This document shows, piece after piece, positions 1-52,665 of a stretch of DNA of 64,000 nt. Location of the stretch: NCBI GenBank assembly GCA_002842215.1, contig PHCC01000018.1:62001-126000 (forward strand). The letters are read 5' to 3'. A program made the position numbers and the translations under genes. This DNA is from Betaproteobacteria bacterium HGW-Betaproteobacteria-9. GTDB lineage: Bacteria; Pseudomonadota; Gammaproteobacteria; Burkholderiales; Burkholderiaceae_C. How positions within the stretch are numbered: the stretch's first letter is position 1; each line of letters opens with the position of its first letter. The notes under the pieces are model-generated. The model was not told where the DNA came from. It saw only the letters and a list, made by a program, of their open reading frames with translations, and did not search any database.

Positions 1-321
1 GAAACCGAGTTCGGCTTTGGGGCTCAGCTGGTGGCTGATGCGCATGCGCTGCTGGCCGGGGCCGGCGCCGCCGTCGAGCACGAGTGCGTCGCGCAGCGGC
101 GCGATGTGGGCTTCACCCAGCAGGGGCCAGATGCCGAGCTGGCGCAGCAACTCGGCGCTGTGCTGGGTGAGGGCGATTTCGCGGCCATCGAAAGCGGGCT
201 GTTGCAGCGCGTCGCGGGTGTGCTGTTCGATCAGGCCGATGTGCAGTCCGCTGCCACGCAGCGCCCGGGCCAGGCTCAGGCCGGCGGGGCCGGCGCCGAT
301 GATGATGAGGTCAAAGTCCAT
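1..321 (-). CDS. UbiH/UbiF/VisC-family FAD-dependent hydroxylase, N-terminal part (runs off the window)
   Basis: The 107 visible codons begin at the CAT complement ending at 321 and continue without a stop to base 1, so the C-terminal part lies outside. The protein opens with a beta strand and the dinucleotide-binding motif GAGPAG (about residues 10-15). The segment DGREIALTQHS near residue 46 is typical of the UbiH/UbiF/VisC/COQ6 flavoprotein hydroxylases of ubiquinone synthesis. Those enzymes use FAD, NAD(P)H and O2 to hydroxylate the quinone ring at the membrane. Which ring position is modified cannot be told from this fragment. The gene is transcribed away from the neighbouring Spy-like gene, whose terminator lies just downstream of that gene, so it is probably a separate unit. 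Another FAD monooxygenase of the same fold is a less likely alternative. Confidence 0.8.
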   Translation of the reverse strand, partial: MDFDLIIIGAGPAGLSLARALRGSGLHIGLIEQHTRDALQQPAFDGREIALTQHSAELLRQLGIWPLLGEAHIAPLRDALVLDGGAGPGQQRMRISHQLSPKAELGF

Positions 322-378
322 GGCGGGGCAGCTTATCGGGTGGCTGGGTGGTGGGGCTTGACTCAGGTCAAGCCCATG

Positions 379-402
379 AAAAAGCCCCGACAGGCGGGGC
401 TT
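379..402 (-). terminator. Rho-independent terminator of the Spy-like gene
   Basis: On the minus strand an 8-bp stem (arms 395-402 and 382-389, AAGCCCCG/CGGGGCTT) with a 5-base loop is followed by five T residues. It lies about 20 bases past the stop codon of the Spy-like gene. Confidence 0.8.
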
Positions 403-421
403 GGCAGGGAGCGGGGCGGGA

Positions 422-1069
422 TCAGCTGCGCGGTTGCATGGGGGCATCGCAGCCGGCACCGCCGCCCATGCCGCCCATGCCACCCATGCGGTGGTGACCG
501 CCGTGGTGGTGTTTGCCCATCATGCCGCGCTCGCCTTGCATGCCGGCGCGCTGGAAGCCGCCGTGGCGCTGCGTGTCAAACACCTTCTGCTGCTCGGGGG
601 TGAGCGCGGCGTAGAAGCTCTTGGTGGCATCGATGCGCTTGTCCATCCGGGCGTCGCGTTCGGCTTTCAGGGCCTGCATCTTGTCGAGGCGCTCGGGCGT
701 GGTCAGCTTGGCCCAGTCTTCACGGCTTTGGTTTCGGGCCATGCGCGGCTCGGGGGCTGTGCGGGCCACAAAGGCGCTCCACGCGGCTTCCTGGTCCGGT
801 GTGATCTTCAGGGTTTCCTTGAGCTGGGCCTGGCGCTCGGCCATGCGCTTTTGCATGCGCTCCATGCGCCAGGCTTGCCGCTTGGACATCTCGGCCTGGC
901 CCGCTGCGGTGTCGGGGCCTCCTTGTGCGCGCTGGGCCATGTGTTGGGCCCGCATCTCCTGCGAGGCGGCGCCCGGCCCCATGCCCTGGGCGATGGCGGT
1001 GGCGGAAACGCCGACAAAGGCGGTGGCGAGGGCAGCGGCGATGAGGGTGCGTTGGCTGAACAGTTTCAT
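422..1069 (-). CDS. Spy/CpxP-family periplasmic protein with His/Met/Gly-rich tail
   Basis: This 215-residue protein has a signal peptide (about residues 1-28, ending SATAIA-Q). A Met/Gln/Arg-rich helical body carries two LTxxQ-like elements (ITPDQ near residue 92 and LTPEQQKVF near 160), the hallmark of the Spy/CpxP family of ATP-independent periplasmic chaperones and metal-stress sensors. The C-terminal 45 residues are rich in His, Met and Gly (GKHHHGGHHRMGGMGG), suggesting metal binding. The adjoining cueR-copZ/copA cluster fits a role in copper or envelope stress, although this is inferred from context. It is transcribed alone and ends at a clear terminator. A direct CpxR or CueR site was not established. 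Confidence 0.75.
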   Translation of the reverse strand: MKLFSQRTLIAAALATAFVGVSATAIAQGMGPGAASQEMRAQHMAQRAQGGPDTAAGQAEMSKRQAWRMERMQKRMAERQAQLKETLKITPDQEAAWSAFVARTAPEPRMARNQSREDWAKLTTPERLDKMQALKAERDARMDKRIDATKSFYAALTPEQQKVFDTQRHGGFQRAGMQGERGMMGKHHHGGHHRMGGMGGMGGGAGCDAPMQPRS

Positions 1070-1235
1070 GTATCACTCCTGAACGGTTGATGAAAGACTT
1101 TCCAGAGATCTCAGAGGGTGTCTGCTTCTGGAATGGCTTCAGTGTGAGCAGCGGCTGTATCTGCTCTGTGCGGGAGTGATGCTGGTTTGTAAAGATTTGT
1201 TCCGCTAACACACGGCTTGCTTGTCCCTGATCAAG

Positions 1236-1280
1236 GAACCACCGCCGGGCAGCGACCCGCACAGCGGTGGCGTGTGGGGG
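1236..1280 (-). repeat. Palindromic extragenic repeat, partial copy, abutting the cueR 3' end
   Basis: About 35 bases (CGACCCGCRCAGCGGTGGCG core) match the copy at 1722-1796. The copy sits between the 3' ends of cueR and the leader of the Spy-like gene. Confidence 0.6.
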
Positions 1281-1715
1281 TCAGAGACTCCCGAGGTCGT
1301 CGAGGATGGGGCAGTCGGGCCGGTCGTTGCCGGGGCAATGGCACAGCAGTTCGTCCAGCGTGCGCTGCATGGCCTGCAGCGCTTCGATGCGCTGGCCCAG
1401 CTCGTCGCGGTGTTTCTGCGCGATGCGCTTGACGCTGGCGCTGCTGCGGCGCCGGTTGTGCCAGAGGCTCACGAGTTCGGTGATGGCGTCGAGGCCGAAA
1501 CCCATGTCGCGCGCACGGCGGATGAAGCGCAGGGTGTGCACGTCGGCCAGGCTGTATTGCCGGTAATTGCTGTCGGTGCGCGCCACCGCGCCCAGCAGGC
1601 CGAGCGCTTCGTAGTGGCGCAGCATCTTGGGCGAAATCCCGCTCAGGCTGGCCGCGGTGCCGATGTTGACCGGCCAGGCGCCCGCGTGGTCCAGCGCGTT
1701 GTGGTTTGTGCTCAT
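1281..1715 (-). CDS. cueR: CueR-type copper-responsive MerR-family regulator
   Basis: From the ATG at 1715 the protein has 144 residues. An N-terminal winged helix-turn-helix (VNIGTAASLSGISPKMLRHY, near residue 18) is followed by a long dimerisation helix. The C-terminal loop CHCPGNDRPDC matches the Cu(I)-binding loop of CueR, where two cysteines eight residues apart coordinate the metal. CueR binds DNA with or without Cu(I)/Ag(I) and activates promoters with 19-bp spacers by distorting them. Two such promoters are seen between copZ and copA. The frame is open further upstream to 1799, but that extension translates repeat DNA, so 1715 is preferred. It lies downstream of copZ, probably co-transcribed through the intervening repeat. 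Confidence 0.9.
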   Translation of the reverse strand: MSTNHNALDHAGAWPVNIGTAASLSGISPKMLRHYEALGLLGAVARTDSNYRQYSLADVHTLRFIRRARDMGFGLDAITELVSLWHNRRRSSASVKRIAQKHRDELGQRIEALQAMQRTLDELLCHCPGNDRPDCPILDDLGSL

Positions 1716-1721
1716 CGGATC

Positions 1722-1796
1722 CGGCGCCGGGCCGCCCCAAGCCGGATCAGCCCCCTCGGGGGGCAACGACCCGCGCAGCGGTGGCGTGTGGGGGCT
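1722..1796 (-). repeat. Palindromic extragenic repeat between copZ and cueR
   Basis: Contains the family core CCCCCTCGGGGGG flanked by GCCGGGCCGCCCCAAG on one side and CGACCCGCGCAGCGG on the other. It begins within a few bases of the copZ stop codon. The same architecture recurs inside copA and after many other genes in the window. Confidence 0.75.
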
Positions 1797-1800
1797 CATC

Positions 1801-2001
1801 TCATGCGGTGACGGTGTAGCCTTCTTCGTTGATGGCCGCGGCCACCGCGTCGCGCGGCTGTTCGGTCTGGACTTCCACCAGGTTCTGGCTGCGGTCGATG
1901 CGCACCTCGGCCTGGGGGTCCAGGGTCTTGATGGCGGTGGTGACGGCTTTTTCGCAGTGGCCGCAGGTCATGCCCTGTACGGTAAAGGTCTGTTGGCTCA
2001 T
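1801..2001 (-). CDS. copZ: CopZ-type copper chaperone (heavy-metal-associated domain)
   Basis: This 66-residue protein is a single HMA domain with the metal-binding motif GMTCGHC at residues 10-16 and the usual beta-alpha-beta-beta-alpha-beta length. CopZ-type proteins carry Cu(I) in the cytoplasm and hand it to the CopA ATPase and to the regulator. The gene is first in a minus-strand unit with cueR and is divergent from copA. Its own promoter carries a near-perfect CueR-type dyad (2036-2054). The start at 2001 is preceded by GAGGAACCACC, a good ribosome-binding site. Confidence 0.92.
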   Translation of the reverse strand: MSQQTFTVQGMTCGHCEKAVTTAIKTLDPQAEVRIDRSQNLVEVQTEQPRDAVAAAINEEGYTVTA

Positions 2002-2027
2002 GGTGGTTCCTCAAGTTGAAAGCTCGC

Positions 2028-2058
2028 ATCTTCAGCCTTGACACCGTGTCAAGGTCAA
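2028..2058 (-). promoter_or_regulatory. CueR-type promoter of copZ-cueR
   Basis: On the minus strand a -35 TTGACC (2058-2053) and a -10 GAAGAT (2033-2028) are separated by 19 bp, the over-long spacer typical of MerR-family targets. The spacer holds the perfect dyad CCTTGACAC-C-GTGTCAAGG (2036-2054). Confidence 0.75.
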
Positions 2059-2090
2059 GTCCCCAGGCGATGAACGATACACCTTGTCGC

Positions 2091-2121
2091 TTGACCTTCC
2101 CATGGGGGTAAAGCTTATGCT
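2091..2121 (+). promoter_or_regulatory. CueR-type promoter of copA
   Basis: The -35 TTGACC (2091-2096) and -10 TATGCT (2116-2121) are separated by 19 bp. The spacer starts CCTTCCCATGG, resembling known CueR operators, and ends only six bases before the copA ATG, so the transcript would have little or no leader. Confidence 0.75.
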
Positions 2122-2127
2122 CGCGCC

Positions 2128-4695
2128 ATGAATACCCTGACCGCAGTGGCCGACCCCGGCGTCGTGCCCGAATCCCCCGAGCTTTGTCAGATCGACCTGG
2201 GCATCGGCGGCATGACCTGTGCCTCGTGTGTGTCTCGCGTGGAAAGGGCGCTGAAGAAGCAGCCTGGCGTGAGCGGTGCGAGCGTGAACCTGGCCACCGA
2301 GTCGGCGCGCGTGACGCTCACAGGCCCCGACGACGCCGAGACCCTGGCGCGCATCAAGCGCGCGGTGCGCGACGCCGGCTACGAGCCGCGGTCCATGGCC
2401 GCCATGGACGAAGACAGCAGCGAACGCTGGCACGGCATCCCCACCGACTTCCTGCCCGTGCTCGCGGGCCTGCTGCTCTCGGCGCCGCTGGCCCTGCCCA
2501 TGGTGGGCGACCTGTTTGGCAAACACTGGATGCTGCCGTCGTGGGTGCAGTTCCTGCTCGCCACACCGGTGCAGTTCTGGCTCGGCGCGCGTTTTTACAA
2601 AGCCGGCTGGCACGCGCTGAAGGCGCTCACCGGCAACATGGAGCTGCTGGTGGCCATCGGCACGACCGCGGGCTGGATGCTGTCCACCTGGCTGTGGTGG
2701 CGCGCCGAGCCGGGCGAGATGGTGCACCTGTATTACGAAGGCTCGGCGGTGGTGATCACGCTGGTGCTGCTGGGCAAGTGGCTGGAGGCGCGCGCCAAGC
2801 GCCAGACCACCAGCGCCATTCGCGCGCTGCACGCGCTGCGGCCGGAGTGGGCGCACCTGCTGCCCGACGGCATCAAACGCACCGAAGAGACCGACGTGCC
2901 GGTGGACGAACTGCTGCCGGGCGATCTGATCACCGTGCGCCCGGGTGAACGTTTTCCGGCCGACGGCACGGTGGCGCAGGGCAGCACGCAGGCGGACGAG
3001 TCCATGCTCACCGGGGAATCGATGCCGGTGGCCAAGGCGGTGGGCGATGGCGTGACCGGCGGTGCGCTCAACGGCGAGGGCGCGGTGCAGGTGAGCGTGC
3101 GCGCGGTGGGTGCGCAGAGCGTGCTGGCGCACATCATCGCGCTGGTGCAGGACGCGCAGGCGGGCAAGGCGCCGGTGCATCGCCTGGTGGACCAGGTGGC
3201 GGCGGTGTTTGTGCCGGTGGTGCTGGTGATCGCGCTGCTCACGCTGGGCGCCTGGCTGTACACCGGTGCGCCGGTGGAAGAGGCGCTGCTGCACGCGGTG
3301 TCGGTGCTGGTGATCGCCTGCCCCTGCGCGCTCGGTCTGGCCACGCCCGCGGCCATCATGGCCGGCACCGGCGTGGCGGCGCAACACGGCATTTTGATCA
3401 AGGACGCGCAGGCGCTGGAGATCGCGCACCGCGTGGACACGGTGGCGTTTGACAAGACCGGCACGTTGACCGTCGGTCATCCGCGGCTGCGGCTGATCGA
3501 GGCGGCGGCGGGTGTGGACGAACTGGCGGTGCTGCAGGCGGCGAGCGCGCTGCAGGCGCAAAGCGCGCACCCGCTGGCGCGCGCCGTGCTGGAAGCCGCG
3601 GCCACGCGTGGGCTGACGGTGGCCGCCGATGCGGCGCAGGATGTGCAGGCGGTGTCGGGCCGCGGCAGCCTGGGGACGGTGCAGGGCGCGAAGCTGGCGC
3701 TGGGCAGCCTGCGCTGGATGGACGAACTCGGCGCGGCCATGGGCCCGCTGGCGGCGCGCGCGCAGACGCTGCAGGACGAAGGCGCCACGGTGTCGGTGCT
3801 GGCGGCGCAGGGCGAGAGCAGTGCCCCCAACCCTGGCTCCGCCAGGCCCCCCGAGGGGGTGCAACCGTTCTTGGGGCGGCCCGGCGAACGGCTGGTTCAG
3901 TGGGCGCCGCTGGCCCTGCTGGCCTTTGCCGACGAAGCCAAGCCGGGCGCGGCCGCTGCGCTGGCCGGGCTGCGCGACCAGGGCCTGCGGCTCTTCATGG
4001 TCTCGGGCGACAACCGCGGCGCCGCGCTGGCCATGGCCCACACGCTGGGCCTGCGGCCTGACGAAGGTGAGGTCATCGCCGAGGTGTTGCCGGGCGACAA
4101 GGCGGCGGTGGTGCAGCGCCTGAAACTGGGCGAACGCGAACCACCGCCGGGCCTGGTGGCGCTGGCGGCGGTGGAGGGTGGCACGCCGCCAGCATTGTTG
4201 GCGAGGGAAAGCGGCGACCCCGTCGCCGGGCCGCCCCAAGGCGGAGTCAGCCCCCCCGGGGGGCAGCGACCCGCGCCAGCGGTGGGGCCCCGGATGAGCG
4301 CCGCAGGCGGGCAGACGCATGGGGGCCATCACACCGTGGCGATGGTGGGTGACGGCGTGAACGACGCACCGGCGCTCGCCGCGGCCGATGTCGGCATGGC
4401 CATGAGCCACAGCCAGGGCGGCAGTTCCGACGTGGCGATGCACGCTGCGGGCATCACACTCATGCGCGGCGACCCGATGCTGGTGGCCGCCGCGCTCGAC
4501 ATCTCGCGCCGCACCGTGGCCAAGATCCGGCAGAACCTGTTCTGGGCCTTCGCCTACAACGCCGCCGGCATCCCGCTGGCCGCGCTGGGTTACCTGAGCC
4601 CGGTGCTGGCGGGCGCGGCGATGGCCCTGAGCTCGGTGAGTGTCGTCAGCAACGCGCTCTTGCTCAAGCGCTGGAAGCCGCCGGTGCAGCGCTGA
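2128..4695 (+). CDS. copA: CopA Cu(I)-exporting P1B-type ATPase with two repeat-derived insertions
   Basis: The 855-residue protein has one N-terminal HMA domain (GMTCASC, residues 28-34). The transmembrane Cu site is CPC (398-400), the phosphorylated aspartate is D442 in DKTGT, and the hinge is GDGVND (741-746), so the catalytic core looks intact. It pumps cytoplasmic Cu(I)/Ag(I) out across the inner membrane. One-HMA CopA proteins are usually near 750 residues; the excess is explained by two blocks. Residues ~566-589 and ~668-735 in the ATP-binding region are Pro/Gly-rich and read through copies of the extragenic palindromic repeat. The second lies directly before the normally contiguous [10 protein letters not shown]. 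Both keep frame. It is divergent from copZ-cueR and presumably CueR-controlled. Confidence 0.92.
3828..3893 (+). repeat. Repeat copy inside copA (first insertion)
   Basis: GGCCCCCCGAGGGGGTGCAA followed by CTTGGGGCGGCCCGGCG matches the extragenic repeat family in the opposite orientation to the 1722-1796 copy. It is translated in frame within the nucleotide-binding domain. Confidence 0.75.
4222..4292 (-). repeat. Repeat copy inside copA (second insertion)
   Basis: CGCCGGGCCGCCCCAAG, then CCCCCCCGGGGGGCAGCGAC and CCGCG-CAGCGGTGG, closely parallels the 1722-1796 copy in the same orientation. Again it is read in frame. Confidence 0.8.
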
Positions 4696-4749
4696 AACCC
4701 CGTTCACCCGGCGTCTGTGTTTCGGGGCGCCGCAACTTGGCGGGGAGGG

Positions 4750-4791
4750 TTGATGTGCGTCAATCTGGTGCGGGCCGTGTTCGGTGATAGT
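4750..4791 (+). promoter_or_regulatory. FNR/Anr-type promoter for the hemerythrin gene
   Basis: TTGATGTGCGTCAA (4750-4763) matches TTGAT-N4-ATCAA at nine of the ten defined positions. A -10-like GATAGT lies at 4786-4791. This places the box centre about 41.5 bp before the predicted start near 4798, the class II activator position. Confidence 0.6.
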
Positions 4792-4804
4792 CTTGGGTCG
4801 AGTT

Positions 4805-4827
4805 AACCGACCGATGGGTCGGTTTTT
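4805..4827 (+). terminator. Terminator-like hairpin in the hemerythrin leader (possible attenuator)
   Basis: An 8-bp perfect stem (AACCGACC 4805-4812, GGTCGGTT 4817-4824) with loop GATG runs into five T residues. It lies between the predicted promoter and the ATG at 4851, so it may be conditional. A simple copA terminator is the alternative. Confidence 0.65.
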
Positions 4828-4850
4828 GGACCCCTGAGGAGACCAGCACC

Positions 4851-5447
4851 ATGAACCACGAAGCCCTGCGGGTCATCCGCGACGAACATGCCTCTCTGGC
4901 GGCGATGCTGCAATCGCTCATGCAGATGGTCCGGCGCGGCCCCGATCCCGAGGGGACCGGCCAGTCCGAGCTGTTTTTTGACGTGTTGCGGGCGATGCTG
5001 TTCTACATCGACGAGTTTCCCGAGAAGCACCATCATCCCAAGGAGTCGGACCTGCTGTTCCCCCGCGTGGCCCGCGTGGCGCCGCACACCATGGCCGCCA
5101 TCGACCAGCTGGAGCGCGACCACATGCAGGGTGAGCTTCGGGTGCGCGAACTCATGCACCTGCTGATGGCCTGGGAGCTGTTGGGCGACACCCGGCGCCA
5201 GGCGTTCGAAGACGAGGTGACCCGCTATGTGGATTTCTACCTCGAGCACATGCGGCTGGAAGAGTCGGTGATCCTGCCGGAAGCCGAAAAGAGCCTGACC
5301 GACGCCGACTGGCACGCGCTCAACGCCGCGTTTGCCACCAACCAGGACCCCCTGAACAGCCGCGTGCCGCGCGACCCACAGTTCGACCGCCTGTTCACCC
5401 GCATCGTCATGCGCGCGCCCGCGCCGGTGGGTCTGGGTCAGGGCTGA
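4851..5447 (+). CDS. Hemerythrin HHE-domain protein
   Basis: This 198-residue, mostly helical protein carries the spaced His/Glu ligands of a four-helix hemerythrin bundle: H in RDEHASL, HHHPKESD near residue 63, ERDHMQGE near 89, and YLEHMRLEE near 131. Such domains hold a non-haem di-iron site and serve in O2, NO or iron sensing, storage or repair. The match to YtfE-like or signalling subfamilies cannot be fixed by eye. The length is typical for a stand-alone hemerythrin. A predicted FNR/Anr box upstream suggests induction under low oxygen, and a terminator-like hairpin occupies the leader. A ribosome-binding site (GAGGAG) lies before the ATG. Confidence 0.85.
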   Translation: MNHEALRVIRDEHASLAAMLQSLMQMVRRGPDPEGTGQSELFFDVLRAMLFYIDEFPEKHHHPKESDLLFPRVARVAPHTMAAIDQLERDHMQGELRVRELMHLLMAWELLGDTRRQAFEDEVTRYVDFYLEHMRLEESVILPEAEKSLTDADWHALNAAFATNQDPLNSRVPRDPQFDRLFTRIVMRAPAPVGLGQG

Positions 5448-5584
5448 TCGCCGTTCCCCAGGGCGGGGTGGCGGCACCGCCGCCGGTGAAAGAAGTTCGC
5501 CGTGGTTTGACGGTTGAGGATGAACACCAAAGTGGTGTTGGCGTGATCAGACTCAATGCCTGCCGCGGTCCGGGCGGGGATGCT

Positions 5585-5620
5585 GGGAACTGTTCAGTAC
5601 CAGTTCCCACTTGATGTGGG
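5585..5620 (+). other. Two overlapping hairpins in the leader of the next gene
   Basis: GGGAACTG (5585-5592) pairs with CAGTTCCC (5601-5608). CCCAC (5606-5610) can instead pair with GTGGG (5616-5620). The two stems share bases 5606-5608, so they compete. The second ends six bases before the ATG at 5627. Confidence 0.4.
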
Positions 5621-5626
5621 CCCGCC

Positions 5627-6214
5627 ATGTCACACCCCGTCTCACTTTCCCGCTCCGGCGAACGCCACGAACTTTCGCGGCAATTGCTCAACCTGGTGCA
5701 GTTGCTCCAGCGGGTGCCCGATACCCGGGAGCCGAGCGGAAACGCCGCCTTTTTCGATACCTTGCGGGCGGTGCTGATTGACGTGTGTGCCGCCTCCCCC
5801 GATCCGTGGCCGGGCGCCGGTGCGCTGGTCATGCTGTCCGTTGCCCAACTGGAGCGCCAGCCCCTGAAAAACGATCCGATGGTCTTCGATCTGCTGCAAC
5901 TGCTGCAGGTCCACGGCTTTCTGGAAGGTGAGCGTCGCACCCATCTGACGGCGACGCTGCGGCGGCTGTTGGGCCAGCACCTGCGCCTGTTCTGGCAGGC
6001 GTCCGAAGCGCCGGTGCGGGCCGTCACGGCGGTCCGCAGCCAGCGAGTCGCCGCGGTCGATATCAACCCCCTCAACCTGCCCTGGACGCTGCGGCCGGGG
6101 CCGCGTGGCTCTGAACACCGGGCCGCGGCCAACGAGCCCGATGCCCACCCGGACAGGCATCGCCCGTCCGCGCGGCAGGACGGCGCTGAAGCCGCCTGGT
6201 TGCCCGCGGCCTGA
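5627..6214 (+). CDS. Hypothetical protein, helical N-terminal two-thirds
   Basis: This 195-residue product is not recognised. Residues 1-130 look like a compact helical domain with regular leucine spacing (LLNLVQLLQRV, VFDLLQLLQVHGFLEGE). The last 50 residues are Arg/Pro/Ala-rich and low complexity, so the true 3' part may be disordered. No signal peptide or membrane segment is seen. It sits downstream of the hemerythrin gene in the same direction, separated by 179 bases that contain two competing hairpins next to the start codon. No good ribosome-binding site precedes the ATG. The opposite-strand frame (5642-6259) is also open but Arg/Gln-rich and looks like a shadow. Confidence 0.55.
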   Translation: MSHPVSLSRSGERHELSRQLLNLVQLLQRVPDTREPSGNAAFFDTLRAVLIDVCAASPDPWPGAGALVMLSVAQLERQPLKNDPMVFDLLQLLQVHGFLEGERRTHLTATLRRLLGQHLRLFWQASEAPVRAVTAVRSQRVAAVDINPLNLPWTLRPGPRGSEHRAAANEPDAHPDRHRPSARQDGAEAAWLPAA

Positions 6215-6270
6215 GCCGGCGCAGCGGCCACCCGGCTGCGTGGGCGCGCTCTGGCCCACAATGGCCGGCC

Positions 6271-7515
6271 ATGTCCCTCCCCTTGCCCGTTTCCCCGGCG
6301 CCCGACGCGCCCGACCGCACGCCCTACCTGCGCCTCGCCCTGGCGCTCTCGCTGGGCGCGGCGGTGTCGTTGGGCATCACGCGCTTTGCCTACGGCCTGC
6401 TGTTGCCGCCCATGCGCGACGACCTGGGCTGGAGCTACACCCTGGCCGGAGCCATGAACACCGCCAACGCGGTCGGCTACCTCATCGGTGCGCTGGCCAT
6501 GTCGTGGCTGCTCAAACGCCTGTCGCCCATGCGCGTGCTGCTGGCGGGCTCGGTGCTCGCCACATTGTTCATGGCCGCCAGCGGCTTTTTCACCGATGCC
6601 ACGGCGCTGCTGATCCAGCGGGGGCTGGCGGGCGTGGCCAGCGCCCTGGTGTTCAGCACCGGGGGCCTGCTGGCCGCTCGGCTGGGCGCGCGCCAACCGC
6701 ATCGAAGTGGGTTCCTGCTCGGGCTGTATTACGGCGGCACCGGGCTGGGCATCGTGGTTTCCGCGTTCGGCGTGCCCTGGCTGCTGGAGCGGGCGGCTGA
6801 CCAGCCCCATGGCTGGGCCTGGGCGTGGTGGGGTCTGTCGGTGTTGTGCGCGCTGGCGACGGCGCTGCTGGCCTGGCCCGCGCGCGTGCTCGCGGCCAGC
6901 GAAGCCGCCCGCCCGGCCGCGACGGCGTCTCCCGGTCACGCCGCCGGACCGCTCGCCAGCCGCGTGTTCCGCATGCGCGACTTCGCCTTTGCGCTGGCGG
7001 GCTATGCCGGTTTTGGCGTCGGCTACATCGGTTACATGACCTTCGTGATCGCGCTGCTGCGCGAGCAAGGCAGCAGCCCCGGCGCGATCACCCTGTTTTA
7101 CGCGCTGCTCGGCGTGGCCGTGGTGGCCTCGTCGCGCATCTGGGCCGGCCTGCTCGACCGTCACAAGAGTGGCCAGGCACTGGCGCGGCTCAACGCCCTG
7201 CTTGGCGTGGCGGCCATCCTGCCCGCGATCACCAGCGCCTGGCCGCTCGTGATCGCTTCGGGCCTGCTGTTTGGTGGCGTGTTCCTCTCGGTGGTCGCGT
7301 CCACGACGGCGCTGGTGCGGCACAACCTGCCACCCGCGCAATGGGCCGCCGGCATCAGCGCCTTCACTGTCATCTTCGCCGCCGGCCAGATCGTCGGCCC
7401 CACCGTGGTCGGCCTCATCGCCGACGGCCCGGGCGGCCTGGCGCGCGGGCTGGTGTTTTCAGCGCTGGCCTTGTGGGTGGGGGCCGCGCTGGCGCTGCGG
7501 CAGCGGGCACTGTAG
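6271..7515 (+). CDS. YbfB/YjiJ-family MFS transporter
   Basis: This 414-residue protein has about 12 hydrophobic segments split by a central hydrophilic loop near residues 205-230 (Ala/Pro-rich). The start matches the YbfB/YjiJ branch of the major facilitator superfamily (GITRFAYGLLLPPMRDDLGWSY pattern, near residue 35, quoted only in part). These are inner-membrane proteins of mostly unknown substrate, thought to export sugars or drugs. The gene starts 56 bases after the unknown gene and ends facing the glutathione transferase gene, so its transcription unit probably ends here. Nothing in the neighbourhood fixes a substrate. Confidence 0.85.
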   Translation: MSLPLPVSPAPDAPDRTPYLRLALALSLGAAVSLGITRFAYGLLLPPMRDDLGWSYTLAGAMNTANAVGYLIGALAMSWLLKRLSPMRVLLAGSVLATLFMAASGFFTDATALLIQRGLAGVASALVFSTGGLLAARLGARQPHRSGFLLGLYYGGTGLGIVVSAFGVPWLLERAADQPHGWAWAWWGLSVLCALATALLAWPARVLAASEAARPAATASPGHAAGPLASRVFRMRDFAFALAGYAGFGVGYIGYMTFVIALLREQGSSPGAITLFYALLGVAVVASSRIWAGLLDRHKSGQALARLNALLGVAAILPAITSAWPLVIASGLLFGGVFLSVVASTTALVRHNLPPAQWAAGISAFTVIFAAGQIVGPTVVGLIADGPGGLARGLVFSALALWVGAALALRQRAL

Positions 7516-7658
7516 GAAGCGCTGGCCGTCGGGAACGGCGCTGGGGCGTGGCGAGGCGTCTCGCCTTTTCGGCTTCATATTCTTGCTGGGCCAGGGCGTT
7601 CATCTGAAAGAAAGAGGCCCCGATGAGCCCCTTGTCGTGATTCAGAACCCTGCAGGCG

Positions 7659-8267
7659 TCAGACCAAACCTTCAGCCTTCATCGCCGCCTGCACACCCGG
7701 GCGTGCCGCCACGCGCTCGCGGTAGGCGGCGAGGTTGGCCAGGCCGCTCACGTCCAGGCCCAGGGGCTTGGCCCAGTTCGTGACGGTGAAGAGGTAGCCG
7801 TCGGCCACGGTGAACTGGTCGCCCATCAGGTACTGCTTGCCGGCGAGTTGGCCATCCACCCAGATCAGGCGCTGCAGCAGGCGGTCCTTGAAAATCTGCT
7901 TGGCTTCGGCAGGCTGGGCGGGGTTGAACAGGGGGCTGAAGCCGCCCTTGTGCAGTTCGGTGCCGATGAAGTTGAGCCACGACTGCAGCTGGTAGCGGGC
8001 CAGGGTGCCGTTGGCGGGGGCGAGGTTTTTCTCGGGCGCCTGGTCGGCGATGTACTGCACGATGGCCGGGCCTTCGCGCAGGGTCTCGCCGCTGTCGAGC
8101 GCGAGGAAGGGCACGTAGCCCAGTGGGTTGACGAGGTAGTAGTCGCTGCCGTCGGGCAGCTTGTGGGTCCTGGTGGGCGCGGCAACGGCTTCGAAGGCGA
8201 GGCCGGCTTCGTGCAGGGCGATGTGGGGCGAGAGCGAACAGGCGCCGGGGGAGTAATAGAGCTTCAT
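7659..8267 (-). CDS. Glutathione S-transferase (GstA-like)
   Basis: From the ATG at 8267 the protein has 202 residues. It has an N-terminal thioredoxin-like domain starting MKLYYSPGACSLSPHIAL, where the Cys/Ser near residue 10 fits the beta-class bacterial GST active site. The cis-Pro region is GYVPFLAL and the glutathione-binding pair sits in ETLREGPAIVQYIAD. An all-helical C-terminal domain (residues 85-202) follows. Such enzymes conjugate or reduce electrophiles with glutathione in the cytoplasm. The frame is open 54 bases further upstream, but homologues begin at MKLYYSP. It is divergent from the agmatinase gene and convergent with the MFS gene. Confidence 0.9.
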   Translation of the reverse strand: MKLYYSPGACSLSPHIALHEAGLAFEAVAAPTRTHKLPDGSDYYLVNPLGYVPFLALDSGETLREGPAIVQYIADQAPEKNLAPANGTLARYQLQSWLNFIGTELHKGGFSPLFNPAQPAEAKQIFKDRLLQRLIWVDGQLAGKQYLMGDQFTVADGYLFTVTNWAKPLGLDVSGLANLAAYRERVAARPGVQAAMKAEGLV

Positions 8268-10744: not shown

Positions 10745-10822
10745 ACCCCCGCAGCGCTTCGCGCTACCCCCTCAAGGGGGCGGCACTGGCCGTACGGCAA
10801 AGCCGGCCCGGCGGTGCCCTGG
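10745..10822 (+). repeat. Palindromic extragenic repeat after puuB
   Basis: CCCCCGCAGCGCTTCGCGC, then CCCCCTCAAGGGGGCGGCA and GGCAAAGCCGG, beginning eight bases past the puuB stop. It separates puuB from the convergent crystallin gene. Confidence 0.75.
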
Positions 10823-10892: not shown

Positions 10893-12308
10893 TCACTGCT
10901 GCTGACGCGGCTCGCCCCGTTCGTTCACCGTGATGGTGTTGCCCGGTTCCATGGCCATCTGGACGCGGTGGTCCTGGCCGCGGAAGTTGTAGGACACGTC
11001 CCAGAACGCGGGTTGCGCGCCGCCGGGGGTGTTTTCGCAGCGCCGCACGTCCTGCGTAGCGGCCTGCCCGTCGCGACCGACCTGCGCACCGAGCGCAGCA
11101 CCCGCGATCACCCCACCCACGGTGGCGATGTCCTTGCCGCTGCCACCGCCCACCTGGTGGCCGAGGATGCCGCCGATCAGGGCACCCGCCAGCGCACCGG
11201 GCACGTTGGCGTTGCCGCCCTGGACCTGTTCACGCTCGACCCAGCAGCGCTGCCCCGAGGTGGCGAGCACGGCCCGCACGGACGTGACCGGGGCTTCGAA
11301 GAGCCGTTCGTTGTCGCGGCGGCGGCTGTCGTAGACCGCCACCGGTTGCGGTGCGTAGCGGTTGTTGTCGATGCGGCCGTTGCCTTCGACGGTGCGCACG
11401 GACGAGATGCGGTCGTTCATGCCCATCGCTTCCAGTGACGGGTAACGGCCGGGGCGCAGTACGACGCAGCGCCCGCGGTAGCGGTTGTCGTCGCAGACCT
11501 CCCAGCGTTCACCGATCACCACCGCCGAGGTGGCGCGGTCGTTGAAACCGGCCCGTTCGAGGTTGGCGATGGCTTCTTCTGCGGTGAAGGAGCGGCCCTG
11601 GAAGCCCGCCCGTTCGAAGAAGGTGACCTGGCCATCGGCCCGGGCGGGGCCGAACGGGGGTGCATACCGGTCGTCGCGGATGCGAACGTTGCCCGCGACG
11701 GTGCGCACCGAGGTGACTTCGTTGTCCAGGCCCATCGCTTCCAGCGACGGGTAACGTCCGGGACGCAGCACGACGCAGCGGCCGCGGTAGCGGTTGTCGT
11801 CGCAGACCTCCCAGCGCTCACCGATCACCACCGCCGACGAGGCGCGGTCGTTGAAGCCGTAGCGGCGGAAGTTGGGGATGGCGCCGGTGGTGGTGAAGGC
11901 GCGGCCGTCGAAGCCTTCGCGCTCGTAGAACGTGACTTGGGGCGCGACCACGACCGGAGCCGGCGCATAGCGGTCGTCGTCCACCCGGGCGTTGCGGGCG
12001 ATGGCGCGCGCCGAGGAGACACGGTCGTTCAGGCCCATGTCGGCCAGCGAGGGATATTTCCCCGGGCGCAGCACCACGCAGCGACCCTGGAAACCGCTGT
12101 GCTCACAAACCTCCCAGCGGTTGCCGACGATCACCACGGACGAGCTGCGGTCGTTGAAGCCGTAGCGGTCGAACCGGGGGATTTCCTGGTTGGCACGCAC
12201 GGTTCGGCCGGCGAAGCCCGGGTTTTCGTAGAAGGTGGCTTGCGCGGCCACCTGGGCGCTGAAGACGATGCCGGCCACGGCCAGCAGGGTTCTTGATAGG
12301 GAAGTCAT
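10893..12308 (-). CDS. Secreted beta/gamma-crystallin protein (three domains) with glycine-zipper tail
   Basis: From the ATG at 12308 (AGGAGA upstream) the protein has 471 residues and a signal peptide cleaved near AQVAAQA. Three beta/gamma-crystallin domains follow (about 25-105, 120-205, 220-305), each with two Greek-key motifs. All six calcium clamps N/D-N/D-x-x-S/T-S are intact (NDRSSS, NDRVSS, NDRASS, DNEVTS, NDRATS, NDRISS), so strong Ca2+ binding is predicted. Each domain also keeps paired cysteines (WEVCDDNRYRGRCVVLRPG). Residues ~360-420 form a glycine-zipper segment (GALAGALIGGILGHQVGGG) seen in outer-membrane lipoprotein-like proteins. Domains two and three are nearly identical at the DNA level, indicating recent duplication. 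Location is probably periplasm or outer membrane. The function is unknown. Confidence 0.85.
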   Translation of the reverse strand: MTSLSRTLLAVAGIVFSAQVAAQATFYENPGFAGRTVRANQEIPRFDRYGFNDRSSSVVIVGNRWEVCEHSGFQGRCVVLRPGKYPSLADMGLNDRVSSARAIARNARVDDDRYAPAPVVVAPQVTFYEREGFDGRAFTTTGAIPNFRRYGFNDRASSAVVIGERWEVCDDNRYRGRCVVLRPGRYPSLEAMGLDNEVTSVRTVAGNVRIRDDRYAPPFGPARADGQVTFFERAGFQGRSFTAEEAIANLERAGFNDRATSAVVIGERWEVCDDNRYRGRCVVLRPGRYPSLEAMGMNDRISSVRTVEGNGRIDNNRYAPQPVAVYDSRRRDNERLFEAPVTSVRAVLATSGQRCWVEREQVQGGNANVPGALAGALIGGILGHQVGGGSGKDIATVGGVIAGAALGAQVGRDGQAATQDVRRCENTPGGAQPAFWDVSYNFRGQDHRVQMAMEPGNTITVNERGEPRQQQ

Positions 12309-12926
12309 GTGGGGGTCTCCTGAAGGGGTGTCACCCATCAGTTTGATCCCCATTTTCAATCGGGTCTGTGCGCTGACGCACACGCTGCCGAAAGGTTCTA
12401 TCCCGTGCCGCCCAGGCCGTACCACGGTGGGGTGATGTCCTGGACGTGCAGGTCCGGCGGGTGCATGGGCGCGGCGGGAAACGCCGATGCCGGGGTGCCG
12501 GGGGCGCGCAGGAACCGCCGGCAGGCCGTGCCATCGACGGGCGCGGTCCCGGGCGGGCTTCGAAGTGCCGGGTCCCGGGCGTTCAGGCCCGCCTGAAAGT
12601 GCGCCAGATGGAGAGAGCAGGACATGGAGGGGGACTTGCTTGGAAGGACGGGCCGGTGGTGTGATGTGCTTGCGCAATCGCTGTGCCAGCTGGCCCTCCC
12701 TGCCCGGTGTGTGCCCCATGAGACCCTTGAATCTGTTGACTTTTCAGACCGTTTCGACGCCGTTCCCGGCACCGGGACCGGGGGTCGATGGGTGGGGCAA
12801 ATGCCCCGTTTGGGCCCGCTGCCGGGGGTTTTACCCCACCCACCACTGGGGCCTGCTGAGCGACGGTCCAGCGCCCGCCGCCAGCGGGTTTTGCGTTACG
12901 CTGCCCGGAATGGAATGGGATCCACC
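12309..12926. other. 618-base region without a supported gene
   Basis: The region lies between the divergent crystallin and sensor-kinase genes and should hold both promoters. Several frames are open on both strands because of high GC, but none has a recognisable protein or a consistent start. A -35-like TTGACT occurs near 12737 without a clear partner. No repeat or terminator was identified. Confidence 0.5.
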
Positions 12927-23687: not shown

Positions 23688-23766
23688 CCCCCCCCCGCGC
23701 CGCTGCGCGTCACCCCCCAGGGGGCGTGCGAGTGGCCCGGCGAAGCCGGTTCCGCGGCGTTCTGGG
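23688..23766 (+). repeat. Palindromic extragenic repeat between potA and potB
   Basis: Starts at the base after the potA stop: CCGCGCCGCTGCGCGTCA, then CCCCCCAGGGGGCGTGCGA, then GGCCCGGCGAAGCCGGTTCC. Confidence 0.8.
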
Positions 23767-24717: not shown

Positions 24718-24800
24718 CCCCCCCCGCGCCGCTTGGCGGCACCCCCCAGGGGGCGATGCGAGTGGCCCGGCAAAGCCGGTTCCACCGCATCCCCGGTGAA
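24718..24800 (+). repeat. Palindromic extragenic repeat between potB and potC
   Basis: Starts at the base after the potB stop: CCGCGCCGCTTGGCGGCA, CCCCCCAGGGGGCGATGCGA, GGCCCGGCAAAGCCGGTTCC. Confidence 0.8.
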
Positions 24801-27359: not shown

Positions 27360-27436
27360 GCCCCCCGCGCCGCTTCGCGTCACCCCCCAGGGGGCGGCAC
27401 TGGCGGCCCGGCAAAGCCGGTTCCGCTGTGCCCTGG
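27360..27436 (+). repeat. Palindromic extragenic repeat between puuC and gabT
   Basis: CCCCCCGCGCCGCTTCGCG, CACCCCCCAGGGGGCGGCAC and GGCCCGGCAAAGCCGGTTCC, starting within five bases of the puuC stop. Confidence 0.8.
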
Positions 27437-30951: not shown

Positions 30952-31098
30952 GCCGTGTCTCCTGCGCCGCGTCAGGGTGCGCGGCTGTAGGCGACATGGT
31001 CGCGCGGAGAGGGGACGTGGGCTGTCGCAGGATGGACAACCCTGTGAGGGAGAGGGGAGAGGACCCTGCCGACGCGGGATGTCTTCACCCAGATCACG

Positions 31099-31169
31099 GC
31101 GGAACCGGCTTCGCCGGGCCGCTCGTGATGCCCCCTCGGGGGGTGACGCCGCAGGCGGCGCGGGGGGTA
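31099..31169 (-). repeat. Palindromic extragenic repeat downstream of the DUF2892 gene
   Basis: GGAACCGGCTTCGCCGGGCC, CCCCCTCGGGGGG and CGCCGCAGGCGGCGCGGGGG, the inverse of the orientation seen after the pot genes. It ends about 20 bases past the DUF2892 stop, again downstream of a gene. Confidence 0.75.
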
Positions 31170-52589: not shown

Positions 52590-52665
52590 GCACCCCCGCC
52601 GCGCTTCGCGCGACCCCCTCCAGGGGGCAACGCGTGCGGCCTGGCGAAGCCAGTTCCGCCGCGTT
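52590..52665 (+). repeat. Palindromic extragenic repeat after boxB
   Basis: CACCCCCGCCGCGCTTCGCGC, CCCCCTCCAGGGGGCAACGC and GGCCTGGCGAAGCCAGTTCC, starting about ten bases past the boxB stop. A decayed second fragment (GGGGGGCCCTGGCC-type) is at 52715-52748. Confidence 0.75.

Follow-up and report, generated by a model that had tools for sequence, protein, structure and literature searches.

The copA gene in the 64,000-nucleotide stretch of Hydrogenophaga DNA analyzed here (hereafter the window) carries two insertions that are copies of a dispersed repeat lying inside its open reading frame, as the original prediction held. We consider it very likely that these are tolerated, near-neutral in-frame insertions of a palindromic repeat of the Burkholderiales, probably the beta-proteobacterial repeat element (BRE). 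An ~80-bp repeat of this kind would spread through Burkholderiales genomes, and copA would have taken it up at two permissive loops, a β-hairpin turn ahead of the P domain and a P-domain loop before the GDGVND motif. Because the element is GC-rich and mostly free of stop codons, an in-frame landing in a surface turn would add a disordered stretch rich in Pro and Gly to the translated protein, and the enzyme would survive.

Two element copies within copA and their allelic history

The features in and beside copA, in window coordinates, are:
2128–4695, plus strand: copA, encoding a Cu(I)-exporting P1B-type ATPase of 855 amino acids with both inserts in frame (open frame, family match, dN/dS 0.079 outside the inserts)
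3822–3895, minus strand: element copy 1, antisense to copA (covariance model, 56.8 bits, E 2.9e-7)
4215–4327, plus strand: element copy 2, sense to copA, long form (core model match 4215–4297, 68.1 bits, E 2.2e-9)
4217–4224 and 4240–4247, plus strand: arms of the first hairpin of copy 2 (7/8 paired, conserved loop GCCGGGCCGCCCCAA between them)
3451–3465, plus strand: DKTGT codons (phosphorylation motif), intact (D442–T446, invariant columns in the CopA alignment)
4348–4365, plus strand: GDGVND codons, intact, immediately downstream of insert 2 (invariant columns G741–D743, N745 and D746)
1716–1796, plus strand: further element copy adjoining copA that shares bases with the 5′ end of a MerR-type regulator's longest frame (model match)

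Both blocks keep the copA frame and are matched by the covariance model, which was built from 26 copies that include these two. Copy 1 belongs to a subtype whose stem is AGCCGTTC/GAACGGTT and whose third hairpin is CTGGC-GGA-GCCAG in the copy alignment, and copy 2 is a long form, lengthened by an additional segment and a GGGGGCC terminus to about position 4327. A BLAST search of positions 3800–4330 against the window's own genome (G000) returned at least 50 matches including itself, the best non-self match among those listed having an E value of 1.7e-26; the element is neither rare nor peculiar to copA. As was also proposed, the second block lies just ahead of GDGVND and the catalytic motifs are retained, V744 of GDGVND being the sole non-invariant column in the two motifs and varying among relatives.

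Copy 1 and the copy in the glycerol kinase gene glpK of the same genome are of one subtype, with the AGCCGTTC stem and CTGGC in the third hairpin; both are intragenic. They are 90% identical over 83 bases, and the only other equally long match among the BLAST matches listed is 73% identical.

For the MerR-type regulator, the longest open frame (1281–1799, minus strand) begins within the adjoining element copy (MSPHTPPLRGSLPPEGADPAWGG...). Its true start is probably a later Met, and automatic start calls in the vicinity of such repeats are thus suspect. An element copy also lies 0.4–0.8 kb upstream of copA in L010, L015 and L039, at the same site as 1716–1796 or at another.

Alignment with close relatives, the check first suggested for these blocks, provided natural empty alleles. 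L015 (from genome G015) and L039 (H. aromaticivorans), which are 94% and 97% identical to the window CopA, lack both blocks; they have an identical site-1 loop and a nearly identical site-2 loop, with no scar. Measured against these alleles, insert 1 adds 25 residues (40 versus 15), which agrees with the size first given for it (about 25). Insert 2 adds 35 (82 versus 47) rather than the predicted 65 or so: the other ~30 residues are a non-element lengthening of loop 2 that is present in empty relatives too, and the larger figure is true only against the common 17-residue loop. The counterargument raised at the outset, that relatives might hold equivalent residues of unrelated sequence, therefore applies in part, to this pre-existing length of loop 2, which exceeds 17 residues in many Hydrogenophaga, and to long site-1 loops of different sequence in L027, L062 and L094; otherwise it did not hold.

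Among 30 CopA sequences (that of the window and 29 relatives), the site-1 element insert occurs only in the window allele (L009) and in L010 from genome G031, which has both blocks with flanking bases identical to those of the window. When 100 of the 110 loci L009–L118 were scanned with the model (leaving out L079, L096 and L111–L118), copies within copA turned up in four genomes: two in G000, two in G031, two in tandem at site 2 in G002, and one at site 2 in G021, the last seen in both L012 and L042. The copA frame is single and open in 78 of 80 named loci, the exceptions being L079 and L096.

An assembly error or chimera, to which dispersed repeats are prone, is scarcely credible as the origin of the copA blocks. 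Besides the shared flanks in G031 and the copies inside copA of G002 and G021, in-frame copies occur in another genome (G035), and an annotated gene on a Rhodoferax antarcticus plasmid (NZ_CP019241.1; L250, 2501–2575) encodes a Fic-family protein (WP_075587959.1) with an in-frame element shortly past its HPFDDGNGR motif. The G031 allele and this plasmid gene in particular render the error very unlikely.

In a copA tree of 36 sequences, the occupied alleles form three separated groups, each beside empty neighbors, and the model scan and the tree together place occupied site 2 in three separated lineages. Of the four closest alleles, L009 is joined to empty L039 at support 0.85 and L010 to empty L015 at a weak 0.48, and this conflict between element presence and the copA tree counts against our explanation. 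In the last 2400 bases of copA, two-against-two sites group the window with L039 at 33 positions, with L010 at 24 and with L015 at 13; 15 of the 24 lie directly at the insert edges, because the insertion itself gives occupied alleles common bases. Between the blocks (3896–4180), 5/5 such sites group the window with empty L039, and directly upstream of block 1 (3640–3820) the window is nearer L010 (2.8%) than L039 (8.3%). These discordant patterns along the gene indicate that copA is a mosaic and that element presence changed more than once, via recombination or loss. The patchy presence in the four closest alleles probably reflects recombination between alleles and not repeated precise insertion.

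The same data bear on the view, compatible with tolerated insertion, that the blocks were ancestral to the closest group and were lost in the empty relatives. That the occupied alleles form no clade and that the sites between the blocks all show the same pairing would fit such a history. However, the model scan detected no site-1 copy in the wider genus outside L009 and L010, site 2 is occupied only in well-separated lineages, and the empty alleles share their loops without a scar. We regard ancestral presence followed by loss as unlikely; loss via recombination within the closest group is possible.

Structure, distribution and affiliation of the element

The element is ~80 bp long (unit about 78–81 bp), comprises three hairpins and is inserted in either orientation. 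In the copy alignment, hairpin 1 has a variable stem with compensating changes and the fixed loop GCCGGGCCGCCCCAA. It is followed by hairpin 2 (CCCCCTCGGGGG), a variable hairpin 3 and GGGGGC, with an extra stretch ahead of the end in some copies, including copA copy 2. Across 26 copies, 92.5% of 468 cells were paired, compared with 39.5–54.7% in slid controls, and 60 cells were doubly changed, that is, compensatory; as the structure was derived from these same copies, the comparison favors it over slid versions of itself. Helix 1 covaries at 7/8 pairs, helix 2 is nearly invariant and helix 3 is paired in 83.7% of the 26 copies. The GC content was 80% and 83% in two of the three units computed, and 135 of 156 reading frames through the 26 copies are open, versus 78% for base-composition shuffles. 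Tandem arrays have a period of 80–84 bp in five of the six tandem loci examined, with 87 bp in L013; L158, the sixth, holds one copy by our filter.

The covariance model (R1) located 45 places in G000 at E values of at most 0.01. It matched 35/35 same-genus relatives, 209 of the 250 family genomes scanned (own genome counted) and a single genome among 24 that represent the order's other families. An order-wide sample gave 32 matching genomes in 300, nine in the family of the window's genome and 23 in others; per-genome copy counts in the same-genus, family and order searches are lower bounds. Eight plasmid records matched (Burkholderia 2, Variovorax 2, Acidovorax, Rhodoferax, Azoarcus and Paraburkholderia), several of them megaplasmid-sized, and the model matched no phage. 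We infer from this distribution that the element is mobile. No target-site duplication was recognized by eye in comparisons of occupied and empty sites, and no linked transposase was seen: G000 has a single Y1_Tnp gene, with no element visible by eye in the 1.6 kb around it. As to the terminal inverted repeats that mark a MITE, the best end-to-end inverted 12-mer match was 6–9/12 in 25 of 26 trimmed copies and 11 in one, the exact ends being approximate.

By its description, the element likely belongs to the BRE family. BREs are GC-rich repeats of ~90 bp (75–91), sometimes in tandem with no or few bases between them, that occur in variable copy number in Comamonadaceae, in other Burkholderiales such as Bordetella, where one copy lies at 3605317–3605401 of B. 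pertussis Tohama I, and in Azoarcus, some copies lying wholly inside coding sequences according to the passages of the original report consulted here (Hot et al. 2011, PMC3110155). The element fits these passages in size, tandem habit, occurrence within coding sequences and taxa, the taxon match extending to the family genomes, the 23 genomes of other families and the Azoarcus plasmid described above. It differs in its plasmid locations, since the same passages place BREs in chromosomes only, and in the GC content of two of its three computed units, which lies above the 63.7–78.9% given for Bordetella copies (PMC3110155). We take the chromosome-only location to be a limit of the 2011 survey and no defining trait. 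A motif look at 20 stretches from seven genomes, aimed at linking the element to BRE, located no lexA-flanked element array, and no Rfam family scored above its gathering threshold in window positions 1–8000.

The likeness to Rickettsia palindromic elements (RPEs) that was drawn at the outset holds for behavior. RPEs are described, in the portions of the sources used here, as palindromic repeats of 100–150 bp that lie in unrelated genes and leave the frame undamaged (PMC10969869, PMC3767692). The element likewise inserts in frame in unrelated genes, and so works like an RPE. RPE hosts are of another bacterial class with AT-rich genomes, and the element uses both orientations and several frames, with most of its copies outside genes. 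A further comparison is offered by GTAG/CGTC REPs, palindromes of 20–40 bp with a GTAG or CGTC tag that are mostly intergenic, some being intragenic and translated, as characterized in the sections of Di Nocera et al. 2013 drawn on here (PMC3733652). The element, too, is a short palindromic repeat found mostly outside genes, with some copies in frame inside genes and presumably translated, yet it has three hairpins, no consistent tag and, in G000, no visible RAYT (Y1_Tnp) link. GTAG was present in the first or last 16 bases of 0/26 trimmed copies, and CGTC in the first 16 bases of 2/26 and the last 16 of 1/26, with approximate end positions in both counts.

With RPEs and intragenic REPs as precedents, the behavior of the element is of a known kind. 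Among the papers listed by our literature search, none was seen to report it inside copA, and searches with element and peptide strings gave two matches only, each holding one 12-mer once. Added here are the covariation model, the natural empty alleles, the named central-enzyme hosts, the recurrence at particular loops and what looks like a gene fusion; the consulted passages of the BRE paper contain no hairpin covariation, named host proteins or empty-site comparison (PMC3110155).

A second repeat type in the window (AACCGGCTTCGCCGGGCC ... CCCCCTGGGGGG ... hairpin ... GGGGGG) resembles the element in plan:
10762–10822: second repeat type
23690–23753: second repeat type
24720–24783: second repeat type
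27361–27424: second repeat type
31086–31166: second repeat type
52594–52657: second repeat type
Five of the six start 6–29 bases past the end of a long plus-strand ORF, and the remaining one is located inside a minus-strand frame. The 45 matches of model R1 include none of them. These repeats are possibly a terminator-like sister family. The window also contains, at 11350–12243 inside a minus-strand ORF (10895–12743), three direct 282-nt copies spaced at 309 and 303 nt, the later two being 81% and 68% identical to the first.

Other host genes and recurrently occupied loops

The proposed genome search for further intragenic copies was productive. By a test that combines codon-usage bias with an open frame on both sides, trained on 28 window ORFs, 7 of the 45 copies in G000 and 15 of 68 in G035 lie in frame within apparent coding sequence, both numbers being approximate owing to the test threshold. 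The G000 hosts are copA (twice), a biotin carboxylase subunit, AroA-Cmk, GlpK, XdhA and a protein that we take to be HoxX-like, which has Pfam formyl transferase and enoyl-CoA hydratase domains. Hosts in G035 include PurL, GlnE, arylformamidase, an acyl-CoA synthetase-like protein, a cyclopropane-synthase-like protein, the linker of a bifunctional enzyme, and XdhA with an insert in a sequence context equal to that of G000 XdhA; several host ORFs are cut off at the stretch edge, and one (L304) matched no family. Of the 22 in-frame copies, 13 are sense and 9 antisense. Random 81-bp placements in the window passed the test in 1511 of 3000 cases, against 16% of real copies in G000 and 22% in G035, so landing in genes appears to be selected against overall, although drawing the control from the window that trained the test may raise its value.

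The insert-bearing AroA has no match in G000 other than itself, so one central enzyme at least is expected to function with an insert. At the AroA loop, element peptide was found in G000, G031, G015 and G008 among 30 loci, with 16–17 residues in 25 and 25 residues in one. The GlpK loop (30 loci) has the element in G000 and G015 and 10 residues in 22/30, six being matched by no pattern class. Most surprising was the biotin carboxylase loop before MEMNTRLQVEH, where the element is present in six of 30 loci (G000, G025, G008, G019, G033 and G023), in another frame in G033 and, judged by peptide, as two copies in G023. The same loop holds a different CTCTCC/GGAGAG-type repeat in three genomes (G015, G035 and G309) and, in G012, a VRPEPVEG-type stretch that we assume to be CGTC-REP-like, G023 having a comparable stretch next to the element; 15/30 loci have 5–14 residues and 5/30 are unclassified, some loci possibly being paralogues. 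The repeat kinds other than the element are presumably unrelated types, and seemingly unrelated repeats thus look to occupy one loop. We tentatively suggest, as a possibility that falls short of even odds, that a few such loops are landing hot spots for unrelated palindromic repeats in different frames, in Hydrogenophaga and perhaps in Burkholderiales at large.

Two of the 15 G035 cases may be junctions of once separate genes. At one (L254/L329; G035:C9:100901–102469), an in-frame element joins a UPF0261 protein and a HAD hydrolase in one open frame of 1127 codons, and the two parts stand side by side in separate frames in G025, G027 and G308; this looks like a gene fusion created via the repeat. 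At the other (L276; G035:C6:24800–26600), one open frame encodes a nitronate monooxygenase domain and an antibiotic-biosynthesis-monooxygenase domain, the latter a weak match, with the element between the two; this may be a second fusion.

Selection, predicted fold and significance

Between G000 and G031, the copA body (784 codons) has 112.7 synonymous and 27.3 nonsynonymous differences (dN/dS 0.079) and is under purifying selection. The inserts (61 codons) have 2 and 7, respectively (dN/dS 1.38), and, since these changes are few, the claim is limited to an absence of strong purifying selection. The inserts differ at 9/183 bases, and their synonymous differences (2/51 sites) are fewer than those of the body (113/632 sites). 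They thus diverge more slowly than fully unconstrained sequence, which could reflect constraint on the hairpins or the peptide, or local recombination.

This slow divergence would suit copA copies that act as nucleic acid, in the mRNA or the DNA, through hairpins, pausing or decay, with the peptide as a by-product. The hairpin stems retain pairing (helix 1 of the two copies at 8/8 and 7/8, G-T counted), and arms 3846–3887 and 4223–4264 are 79% complementary, so that the inverted copies could pair across 335 nt. Yet retained pairing could reflect mere young age, intragenic copies are depleted and not favored, and two close relatives lack both copies; we give this role little credence.

An AlphaFold model of CopA (55 sequences; mean pLDDT 84.8) predicts that the fold is intact despite the inserts, which are themselves of low confidence. 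Values below 50 are confined to residues 1–10 and 679–729, and ten-residue blocks of insert 1 score 57–71, a few other blocks scoring 59–68. The top TM-score among the 50 PDB matches listed in a structure search is that of the P1B copper ATPase 7r0g (TMt 0.85). In the model, insert 1 lies between strands 554–561 and 592–601, in the β-hairpin turn ahead of the P domain, and insert 2 in a P-domain loop that follows helices ending at 667 and 681 and precedes strand 737–741. The phmmer alignment to 3rfu is interrupted where each insert lies, 3rfu having 0 and 5 residues at these points, and for CopA, glycerol kinase, biotin carboxylase and EPSP synthase alike the best solved-structure sequence match has 0–5 residues at the insert position. 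The loop positions come from this one predicted model and from sequence alignment; the loops would lie on the protein surface. The insert-bearing CopA is most likely made and active, with copper export retained, and the inserts would be near-neutral for it.

Exaptation of the new peptide loops to modulate CopA, for example in regulation, stability or partner binding, seems improbable to us. Both inserts are retained in two species (L009 and L010), and the long loop 2 of many Hydrogenophaga points in the same direction. However, purifying selection on the insert peptide was not seen over its few sites, the inserts are of low confidence in the model, close relatives are empty, reading frames and orientations differ between hosts, and seemingly unrelated repeats replace each other at the biotin carboxylase loop.

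Near-neutral insertion remains our favored explanation. The best-known cases of palindromic repeats that code for protein come from Rickettsia and Wolbachia; in these bacteria, genome reduction blurs whether host proteins still function. Hydrogenophaga has large genomes, named strains, easily assayed hosts (CopA, EPSP synthase, glycerol kinase) and insert-free natural alleles in sister species, so whether an insert is a neutral passenger or a new function is directly testable without sequence design. For annotation, gene starts and fusions close to such repeats are unreliable. If the hot-spot reading is true, these repeats would constantly supply working metabolic enzymes with disordered loops, with linkers between domains and even with gene fusions.
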